From NCBI GenBank assembly GCA_938002965.1, contig CALKZY010000005.1, forward strand, positions 1 to 64,000: a stretch of 64,000 nt of DNA. Reading direction: 5' to 3'. This document shows positions 3,430 through 14,158 of this stretch, piece by piece. The translations under genes were made by a program, and so were the position numbers. Position 1 is the stretch's first letter. Each line of letters opens with the position of its first letter. The notes under the pieces were generated by a model. The model was not told where the DNA came from, searched no databases, and saw only the letters and a program-made list of their open reading frames with translations. Origin of the DNA: an uncultured Acidimicrobiales bacterium (GTDB lineage Bacteria > Actinomycetota > Acidimicrobiia > Acidimicrobiales > SZUA-35).

Positions 3430-4803
3430 TCACGGCACCAGTATCCGACGGCCGTCCACCCAAACCGCTGACACGTCGGCTGGCCGAGCTCGGCGGACCA
3501 GTTGTTCGAACATTCGTGACCAGTCGACGGTCCCGGTTTGATCGCCGTGGGCGTCGACCCCCACCGAGCGCAGATCAACGGCAACAGCATCGAAACGGTT
3601 TCCTTCGGCCAACAGGCCCACCGGTAGATCCAACATTCGGGCGCCCCCCATTGTGGCCATCCAGAACGCACTGACGATGTCGATGCGCTGAATGCTTGAA
3701 GTGGCGGATCGCTCGAGTAAACGAGATGATCCTACGGCATGACCGCACTGCGCCAACAGGCTGGGCTCGGGGCCACCGGCGATGTCGGTACCCAACCCGA
3801 CGGGGATCCCGGCACCGAGTGCTAGGCGGGCGGCGAAGACCCGTTCCGAGAAGTAGATGTTGGACAGCGGGCAGTGGGAGACACCAGCCCCCGAGGCGGC
3901 AATGGTGGCCCGGTCATCGTCGGTGAGGTGAGTGGCATGAGCCAACACGGTTCTTGGCCGCAGTAGACCGAACCGCTCCAGGGCATGAGTATCGGTGCAA
4001 CCGTGACGTTCGAGGACATAGTCGTGCTCCCACTGATTTTCCGAGCAGTGGGTTTGCACCGCAACGCCGGTTTCGTCGGCCAGCCGACCGAGGCTGGTGA
4101 GTAGTTCGTCGGTGCAGGCCGGAATGAAGCGCGGGGTGATGATCGGCTCCACCAAGCCGTTGTTGCCGGAGACCGACCGGACGGCGTCGATGGACCTGGC
4201 GCTGGCTTCTAGTGCTTCGGTGGCGTTGGCGTCGCGGTACCACTGCGGTGTTCCCTCCGGATGGTCCATGGCCACCCGCCCGACGAAGGCACGCTGACCG
4301 TGTTGCACGCAGGCCTCAGCCAGCGCTGTGGTGGCTGCGGAGTGAACCGAGGTGTAGTAGACAGCGGTAGTGGTGCCGTGTGACAACAGACGGGGGACCA
4401 TGTCGGCCCACGTTCGTCGGGCGAAGTTGATGTCGGCGTAGCGAGCCTCCAGCGGGAAGGTGTAGGCGAACAGCCATTCATCTAACGGCAGGTCCAATCC
4501 GGTGCCCAGCTGCGGCCACTGGGAGGCGTGAATGTGGGTGTCGACTAGTCCGGGTATGAGTACCACGCCGTCCGGCAGCGTTTCGACTGTGTCATTGGCG
4601 GCTTCCGCTGTGTCATTAGCGGCTTCCGCCGTGTCGTTGGCGGCTTCCGCCGTGTCATTGGCGAGAGTCTCGCGGGTGGCGCCATCCGCCCGAGCCGGGA
4701 TTATGTCGGTTATGACACCAGCGTCGACGGTGACGACGTGATCCTCCAAAACCTGGAGCGAGTTGGCGTCCGGCGTTTGCAGGATGGTGCCCCGGATCTG
4801 CAT
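3430..4803 (-). CDS. guaD: Guanine deaminase (amidohydrolase superfamily)
   Basis: A 457-residue cytoplasmic amidohydrolase. It carries the metal motif HxH (H90, H92 in LVDTHIHASQ), the HCSENQ motif with the conserved His and Glu, a further metal His in VLAHATHL, and the GTDIAGG aspartate. This set fits guanine deaminase, which converts guanine to xanthine and ammonia. Length is near the family norm once a repeat insertion is set aside. Residues 49-76 are three perfect copies of the seven-residue unit NDTAEAA plus a degenerate fourth, placed between the N-terminal sandwich and the catalytic barrel. ATG 4803 has TAGAGT exactly six bases upstream. The TetR gene just upstream is transcribed the same way but ends 29 bases earlier, so the deaminase has its own promoter and may also be read from the regulator. 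Confidence 0.88.
   Translation of the reverse strand: MQIRGTILQTPDANSLQVLEDHVVTVDAGVITDIIPARADGATRETLANDTAEAANDTAEAANDTAEAANDTVETLPDGVVLIPGLVDTHIHASQWPQLGTGLDLPLDEWLFAYTFPLEARYADINFARRTWADMVPRLLSHGTTTAVYYTSVHSAATTALAEACVQHGQRAFVGRVAMDHPEGTPQWYRDANATEALEASARSIDAVRSVSGNNGLVEPIITPRFIPACTDELLTSLGRLADETGVAVQTHCSENQWEHDYVLERHGCTDTHALERFGLLRPRTVLAHATHLTDDDRATIAASGAGVSHCPLSNIYFSERVFAARLALGAGIPVGLGTDIAGGPEPSLLAQCGHAVGSSRLLERSATSSIQRIDIVSAFWMATMGGARMLDLPVGLLAEGNRFDAVAVDLRSVGVDAHGDQTGTVDWSRMFEQLVRRARPADVSAVWVDGRRILVP
4589..4663. repeat. 21-bp in-frame tandem repeat inside guanine deaminase gene
   Basis: Copies at 4589-4609, 4610-4630 and 4631-4651, with a degenerate partial copy to about 4663. The copies differ by one or two bases, and each encodes the same seven residues (NDTAEAA) on the minus strand. 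Short in-frame units like this change copy number easily by slippage. Confidence 0.85.
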
Positions 4804-4809
4804 GAGAGA

Positions 4810-4815
4810 ACTCTA
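4810..4815 (-). promoter_or_regulatory. -10 box for leaderless guanine deaminase gene
   Basis: TAGAGT on the minus strand ends six bases before ATG 4803. Confidence 0.6.
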
Positions 4816-4832
4816 GAGCCGAGGCCGCACGT

Positions 4833-5396
4833 CTAGTCGACCCGCTGGGGCATCAGCCCGTGAAGGAGGGCATCGAGAATCAAGTCGACTTGAGTCGACG
4901 GCTGCCCTGCCGTCCCGACGGCCGACTGTAGGGCCAAAAATCCGTGCAACGCGCTTCGCAGCGACATCGCTGCACTTGATGCTTGCCCGTCGGAAAGACC
5001 GAGACTTCGGAAGACCAACCCCAGTACGTCGAGAAGGCCGGCGCAGGCTTCGTCGAGCCCGGCATCGTCGGCTGACGGGGGAGCGAAGGTAGCAGCATAT
5101 TGGCCCGGGTATTGTCGAGCGAATCCGTGATAGGCGTTGGCGACGGCGATAACGGCGTCCCGCCCGGCCACCCCAATGGCGGCGTTGCGAACGGCAGCTG
5201 TGAGATTATCGGTGGCCGCCACCGCCACGACGTAATGAAGGTGGCCAGCACCGTCCACGTGGGTGTAGAGCGCTGAGGGCCGAACCTCTAATGCCTCGGC
5301 CACCTTCGACAGCGTCAACGATTCGAGTCCTCCGGTGTCAACCAGTTCGATAGCGGCGGCGATCACGCTGTCGAGGTCGATCCGAGTGCGAGGCAT
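4833..5396 (-). CDS. TetR-family transcriptional regulator
   Basis: A 187-residue repressor. The N-terminal helix-turn-helix is clear (about residues 8-55: IAAAIELVDTGGLESLTLSKVAE then VRPSALYTHV). The C-terminal ligand domain has the hydrophobic helices of the TetR_C/WHG type, with the late ALRSALHGFLALQ stretch. It lies 29 bases upstream of the guanine deaminase gene on the same strand, so it may control purine salvage or its own operon. A TACCCT box lies eight bases before the ATG, which would give an almost leaderless transcript. The ligand is unknown. Confidence 0.85.
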   Translation of the reverse strand: MPRTRIDLDSVIAAAIELVDTGGLESLTLSKVAEALEVRPSALYTHVDGAGHLHYVVAVAATDNLTAAVRNAAIGVAGRDAVIAVANAYHGFARQYPGQYAATFAPPSADDAGLDEACAGLLDVLGLVFRSLGLSDGQASSAAMSLRSALHGFLALQSAVGTAGQPSTQVDLILDALLHGLMPQRVD

Positions 5397-13591: not shown

Positions 13592-14158
13592 GTGAGTCGG
13601 GTTGAACCTTCCATGCGATCAACCCGTCGACGAAGTTGGACCAGGATGGCCGCTGCGTTGGTCTTGGGTGCGACGTTGACCGCCGCCGCATGCGGGGCGG
13701 GCGATGTAGCGGTGGAAGAGGCAGTAGCGGATGAGTCCGCCACCGCCGCCGAGTCCTCTGGCTCGGGCCTGTCCGGGCAGTTCGACACCGTCGATGGTTC
13801 CTCGATCAACCTGGCCGATTTCGACGGTCAGGATGTGGTGCTGTGGTTCTGGGCCCCGTGGTGACCGTTTTGACGTGCGGAAGCCCCTACGGTCGTAGAG
13901 GTACAGCAGCAATTTGGTGATCAGGTCCAGATCATTGGTATTCCCGGTCTCAGTAGCGACGTGCAAGGCATGGCCGCCTTTGTCGATGACACCGGTACCG
14001 GCGTCATCGCCCATATTCCTGATCCTGACGGTGTCCTCTGGGACCGCTTTGGCGTGACCCAGCAGCGAACTTACGTTTTCTTGAACGATGACGGCACCAG
14101 CCGGATTGGTACTTACGGGAATCTTCCCGGTGACGTGGAAGAGCTGATAGCGGGCTGA
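13592..14158 (+). CDS. Thioredoxin-fold lipoprotein with two in-frame TGA codons, predicted selenoprotein (U-P-F-U)
   Basis: Read through TGA, this is 188 residues. It has an N-terminal lipoprotein signal (lipobox cysteine C34), a short Ala/Ser linker and a TlpA/DsbE-like thioredoxin domain. The frame stops at TGA 13862-13864 directly after LWFWAPW, where homologous proteins have the first Cys of CxxC. A second TGA at 13871-13873 falls on the second Cys, giving W-U91-P-F-U94-RAEAP. Downstream the frame is open to TGA 14156-14158 and contains typical strands (VQIIGIPG, RTYVFLNDDG). Both TGA codons can only be redox residues, so selenocysteine is inferred. ATG 13613 is an alternative start. A hairpin at 13884-13901 could serve as the insertion element for both codons. 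It would act outside the membrane as a thiol/selenol oxidoreductase. A pseudogene is unlikely because the frame is intact on both sides. Confidence 0.85.
13884..13901 (+). promoter_or_regulatory. Candidate bacterial SECIS hairpin for the double-TGA gene
   Basis: CCCCTAC-GGTC-GTAGAGG pairs with one mismatch around a four-base loop starting GG. The loop starts 26 bases after the first TGA and 17 after the second, both inside the spacing usual for bacterial SECIS elements. A second possible pairing, GACCGT (13863-13868) with ACGGTC (13889-13894), would enclose both TGA codons. Which fold forms is not known. Confidence 0.5.

Follow-up and report, generated by a model that had tools for sequence, protein, structure and literature searches.

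A predicted thioredoxin-fold lipoprotein with two selenocysteines in one U-x-x-U motif in an uncultured Acidimicrobiales bacterium

The window analyzed in the present study is a stretch of 64,000 nucleotides (C5:1-64000) from a draft genome bin of 4.69 Mb, which is 91% complete with 6% contamination. On the plus strand, the frame at 13592-14155 reads ...VVLWFWAPW-U-PF-U-RAEAP..., with TGA codons at 13862-13864 (U91) and 13871-13873 (U94). This pair lies at the site of both Cys of the WFWAPWCPxC motif in relatives. The frame is otherwise open, and a third TGA at 14156-14158 is the ordinary stop; the gene (13592-14158) thus has three TGA codons, two for selenocysteine (Sec) and one for termination. 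The plain frame list stops the gene at the first TGA (13592-13864), and ordinary gene calling truncates such UxxU genes at the same point. The preliminary description had placed two in-frame TGA codons at both Cys of a CxxC motif, and the frame reading and 26 of 26 aligned genes bore out both this claim and its coordinates.

Translation may start at GTG 13592 or, alternatively, at ATG 13625. A signal-peptide-like stretch is followed by a lipobox-like AAAC-G (...LTAAAC-G), the Cys of which (Cys34, 13691-13693) remains Cys. A similar site was found with our own pattern in 23 of 26 UxxU genes, and one of the three misses (L244) starts at a contig edge. These observations agree with the lipoprotein nature that had been proposed for the protein. 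Among the neighbors in the window, as read from the frame list, are putative cobalamin genes upstream and a putative GNAT-like frame on the minus strand.

AlphaFold2 (87 sequences) modeled the protein with a thioredoxin fold; from residue 61 onwards, pLDDT averaged 93-98 per block. The nearest solved structures were DsbF (3ios) and MPT53 (1lu4) of M. tuberculosis, followed by ResA. DsbF matched with a Foldseek E-value of 6.7e-15 and a phmmer E-value of 1.3e-20 over residues 64-169, and the UGA positions aligned with Cys of the homologues. The best Pfam match was PF00578 (46.4 bits, cut-off 26), and the NCBIfam models for TlpA, ResA, and DsbE scored 46.2, 43.7, and 34.4 bits, below their cut-offs of 230, 170, and 123.15. 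By predicted fold and sequence similarity, the UxxU protein is a DsbF/TlpA-type extracytoplasmic thioredoxin-fold protein. The disulfide oxidoreductases DsbF and MPT53 resemble it in fold, sequence, and the WFW-x-PWCP-x-C motif. However, both sites are occupied by Cys in these two proteins, and the counterpart of Arg159 is Pro.

The preliminary description had pointed to selA, selB, selC, and selD as genes to look for, and all four are present in the same genome. selA (392.9 bits, cut-off 267.9) adjoins selB on C7, and selB scored 253.7 bits with its neighbors in frame (cut-off 242.25). selC (66.3 bits, cut-off 47), which ARAGORN called as SeC(tca), lies near a contig end. selD scored 364.9 bits (cut-off 125). 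The four components of a SelB/SECIS system all exceed their curated cut-offs. selD (G000:C17:47905-48840) itself carries one in-frame TGA at L018:1531, which probably encodes Sec. Since no GGTC occurs in the 60 nt after this TGA, the SECIS of selD must have another form.

In the window's family, selA was matched in 36 of 39 genomes, exceeding the cut-off in 34, and tRNA-Sec was found in 29 of 39 (E-values up to 1e-9). The 10 genomes in which tRNA-Sec was not found include G024 and G015, both of which have UxxU genes. Among the UxxU genomes of this family, selA exceeded the cut-off in 13 of 13, and tRNA-Sec was found in 11 of 13. Neither selA nor tRNA-Sec was found in the three genomes of genus g8; 17 matches to the UxxU protein were obtained in this genus, and the six listed contain no TGA.

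The 26 UxxU genes were aligned as local matches, and some are without part of the N-terminus. TGA occupies the two Sec columns in 26/26 and occurs nowhere else in the aligned stretches; UxxC paralogues have TGC or TGT in place of the second codon. Past the second TGA, mean pN was 0.30 against a pS of 0.64, and the corresponding values upstream of the first TGA were 0.36 and 0.69, with pS near saturation in both parts. After the second TGA, differences at the three codon positions were 0.33, 0.27, and 0.55, and gaps occurred in 7 of 96 columns. By these measures of the aligned genes, the frame past the second TGA is under selection.

In a draft genome, two stops within a frame might be read as a pseudogene or a sequencing error. 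However, the same two codons recur in 29 genes of 26 genomes, the downstream part is under selection, and the hairpin described below covaries. We consider this explanation to be practically nil in probability, and it was rejected on the grounds of the shared TGA pair, the downstream selection, and the Sec machinery. The preliminary description had named a lack of Sec machinery and stop codons at random positions as signs against its reading; the machinery is present, and TGA is restricted to the two columns. Equally improbable is the genome-wide reassignment of TGA to an ordinary amino acid, for which no supporting evidence was found. This was also rejected: TGA is the stop of the UxxU gene itself and is confined to the two Cys sites in the aligned genes, and the Sec machinery is present.

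A hairpin at 13883-13902 pairs 13883-13890 with 13895-13902 around the loop GGUC (13891-13894). Published limits for a bacterial SECIS are a loop of 3-9 nt with G in its first two places, an upper stem of 4-16 bp, and a minimum free energy (MFE) of at most -7.5 (accessible text of PMC13188914). The window hairpin has the loop GGUC, a stem of 4+3 bp around one C-A mismatch, and an MFE for 13882-13903 of -7.5, which is just at the limit. Its loop lies 26 nt past the first UGA and 17 nt past the second. Since both distances are within the published range of 16-37 nt from UGA to loop (accessible text of PMC13188914 and PMC10778597), one hairpin can serve both codons.

In 28 UxxU genes, RNAalifold predicted a hairpin at a distance of about 22 nt from the first TGA; none was found when all 45 UxxC genes were folded together. 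The covariation of the 8-pair stem was 0.276 in the UxxU genes alone (shuffled, 0.145) and 0.360 in 68 UxxU and UxxC genes (shuffled, 0.157), and in neither case was any of 500 shuffles as high. When the partners were slid by 1 to 3 columns, values did not exceed 0.165 and 0.120, respectively. CGGUC is invariant in the 68-gene set (A2), which comprises 68 of 73 genes because five distant UxxC genes without CGGUC were excluded. At least six of the seven inner pairs form in 28/28 UxxU, 29/45 UxxC, and 1/83 CxxC genes; as a control, GGTC occurs at the loop position in 9/83 CxxC relatives. Most UxxC paralogues have the hairpin at the same place as the UxxU genes; in the set of 45, five have no loop and nine form three or fewer of the seven pairs. 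Fourteen additional UxxC genes of a second family, f29, carry the hairpin with six or seven of seven pairs, and two distant UPTC genes of f29 do not.

In pair 27-36 (alignment columns), the third codon position of Pro pairs with that of Val/Ala, and the pair alternates between C-G and U-A, a switch that is not readily explained by the protein. Pair 28-35 alternates between A-U and G-C, tracking Thr-Val-Val after the motif in UxxU genes (13886-13898 in the window) versus Ala-Val-Ala in most UxxC genes. Because this switch goes with the residue change, the RNA structure seems to constrain the choice of amino acid. Changes on both sides of a pair were not clearly above shuffles (reached by 82 of 500 shuffles in A1 and by 316 of 500 in A2), nor were additional types of pair in A1 (reached by 498 of 500). 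The automatic fold of the 68 sequences had four inner pairs only. Taken as a whole, the 50-nt stretch is no more stably folded than shuffled sequences (z 0.04), and a different fold wins in L134. A SECIS model run on the source genome returned three strong matches, namely, the UxxU gene and two UxxC paralogues; none of eight weak matches passed a check of hairpin and frame.

Based on the frame, the Sec machinery, the conservation of both TGA codons in the group, and the covarying hairpin, we consider the gene to encode a genuine selenoprotein with two Sec in one U-x-x-U active site, predicted to be a lipoprotein at the outer surface of the cytoplasmic membrane (probability of approximately 0.88). 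SelB acting on the one hairpin would deliver Sec at both UGA codons in turn, as both lie in the published distance range. Two neighboring UGA codons are generally expected to lower the yield, and the hairpin, which lies 26 nt after the sole UGA of UxxC paralogues, may be tuned to the first codon. It is conceivable that only the first UGA is efficiently read as Sec and that translation mostly ends at the second or another tRNA reads it, giving a short or one-Sec product. However, both TGA codons are kept in 26/26 genes even though one base change restores Cys, and 17 nt is also within the 16-37 nt range (PMC13188914, PMC10778597, in their accessible parts). We regard a product with Sec at the first site only as unlikely. 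With the UxxC paralogues as natural controls, the question of whether one bacterial SECIS decodes two UGA codons may now be tested, as may the benefit of a second Sec that a single base change would undo.

The preliminary description had proposed a search for homologues, and relatives carrying Cys or Sec at each of the two sites were found. In total, 29 UxxU genes, including that of the window, were found in 26 genomes from three families of one order. A protein search of the window's family gave matches in 39 of 39 genomes, and 16 matches in 13 genomes hold exactly two TGA. Two of these appear to be second contig-edge pieces because the overlap is identical, which leaves 14 genes. Many weaker matches in the family hold one TGA, and none of all the matches listed, a list that does not extend to the weakest, holds TAA or TAG. 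Since many one-TGA TlpA/DsbF-like relatives occur per genome (G000-G038), the lineage seems to be rich in Sec-containing thioredoxin-fold proteins. Two UxxC selenoprotein paralogues of the same fold lie in the window's own genome (G000:C6:32057-32464, L157, and G000:C3:51535-52068, L154), and in each of them the same hairpin follows the UGA at a distance of 26 nt.

When 397 genomes of the order were searched by pattern, 67 gave some match, most of which were chance matches by their letters. This search pointed to f29 and to one gene in f70, and the proteins match. In the 19 genomes of f29, a protein search found 14 two-TGA matches in 12 genomes. The protein searches in f1 and f29 were unbiased towards TGA, whereas the pattern that found the f70 gene required it. 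In a class sample of 395 genomes (E-values up to 1e-30), two-TGA matches occurred in three genomes only, all of the window's family. This sample reveals little about the spread because its one matching f29 genome, G402, has one-TGA relatives only. The pattern also matched 34 of 396 genomes across the phylum, with the window alone looking real by its letters; no protein match to the UxxU protein was found in G730 from this search or in G433 and G443 from the order search. Among the 80 relatives kept out of 261 in a contig search, the top two were a UxxU and a UxxC protein from Acidimicrobiales bins, and the other 78 were CxxC.

In a careful tree of 87 proteins, in which Sec was entered as Cys so that the motif gives no signal, the 27 UxxU rows form one clade (98/89) beside UxxC groups. 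One change suffices in 99% of 200 bootstrap trees, from a bootstrap that had not settled. An earlier quick tree of 97 rows agrees on one UxxU clade (95), and neither tree shows a reversion to Cys within it. In contrast, a quick tree of 105 rows requires two changes and divides UxxU into two groups, with six UxxC rows inside the common clade of 27 UxxU rows. Seven partial matches were removed before the trees were built, and CxxC rows were thinned by random draw in each. The careful tree was also built without L161, L166, L167, L128, and L168, the UxxC rows of L242, L243, L269, L163, L164, and L165, and the UTTC rows of L158 and L160. One protein alignment took 87 of the 96 listed reference sequences. 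A single gain of UxxU is the best reading of these trees, but is not certain. The second Sec probably arose in a UxxC ancestor through a single base change from TGC or TGT to TGA, and the hairpin of this ancestor would already have reached the second codon.

The SECIS hairpin, the UxxC paralogues, and an Arg that replaces the cis-Pro of the thioredoxin fold go beyond the preliminary description. Arg159 (codon 14066-14068) aligns with the Pro of DsbF and MPT53 (QQRTY vs QQPAY in DsbF) and directly precedes model strand 160-164; the cis-Pro before the third strand is absent in the UxxU protein. At this position, 23 of 26 UxxU proteins have Arg, and the others have Ser, Gly, or Gln. Arg was not found among 46 UxxC proteins (Pro 38, Ser 8) or 85 CxxC proteins (Ser 58, Pro 19, Tyr 6, Ala 2). 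Arg at the cis-Pro position suggests selenolate stabilization and perhaps peroxide reduction. The cis-Pro may prevent metal binding to CxxC (accessible text of PMC2757866), and its replacement in UxxU proteins would be consistent with the two Sec forming a metal or selenium binding site rather than a redox catalyst. However, the residue in 23/26 is Arg, the positive charge of which is unfavorable for cations, and the fold is that of a thiol-disulfide oxidoreductase. We consider a binding site to be very unlikely and favor redox catalysis.

Peroxiredoxins share an Arg at the cis-Pro position with the UxxU proteins (accessible text of PMC2757866). DsbF and ResA are nearer to the UxxU protein in fold and sequence than peroxiredoxins are. 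The peroxiredoxin motif has Thr three residues before the peroxidatic residue. Peroxiredoxin selenoproteins have TxxU (accessible text of PMC2398784). In the window protein, A88 and U91 stand three residues before the two Sec, and neither is Thr; this absence, as judged from the sequence, argues against a full peroxiredoxin identity.

SelL, which Shchedrina reportedly described in 2007 as a diselenide UxxU family, shares U-x-x-U with the window protein and was likened to it by motif and descriptions. In the accessible parts of the sources, SelL is a Prx-like protein found mostly in aquatic organisms (PMC2398784) with two Sec and one SECIS (PMC3541580), and in archaea, several Sec are stated to share one SECIS (PMC3541580). 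Prx-like 2 of the GOS set is UxxU (PMC2398784), and Prx-like thiol:disulfide oxidoreductase selenoproteins of PF00578 are entered as UxxC and UxxU (PMC9312934, PMC13188914). The latter, compared by description, are like the window protein in carrying one Sec or two within the same motif; the accessible entries for the UxxU form do not mention a lineage, a lipoprotein nature, a shared hairpin, or an Arg. The UxxU motif itself is already known from SelL and Prx-like proteins. No earlier report of the present UxxU group was found in the accessible parts of the open-licence literature. The group provides 29 natural sequences, and the replacement of the cis-Pro by Arg is indicative of a specific change in chemistry.

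We speculate that the UxxU protein switches between diselenol and intramolecular diselenide states, with electrons from a putative membrane thiol relay. It may reduce oxidized extracytoplasmic substrates, with Arg159 holding the reactive selenolate. A broader and more doubtful proposal, which we offer tentatively, is that one bacterial SECIS programs two Sec nine bases apart and that the second Sec was gained together with the change from cis-Pro to Arg. A DsbF-like lipoprotein for disulfide exchange may have become a membrane-anchored peroxiredoxin-like selenol peroxidase, or a similar reductase, with a diselenide as the resolved state.

Gene neighbors were compared at 27 loci (frames of at least 100 aa), and no conserved partner was found among the 14 widest clusters listed. 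The clusters of 21, 18, and 11 loci have example frames that are antisense to the UxxU gene or represent its own first part, and the remaining 11 join four loci each. In G522 of f29, two UxxU genes lie in tandem on the minus strand (L242:3691-4071 and 4478-5017), and a distant relative with a UPTC motif lies nearby on the opposite strand.
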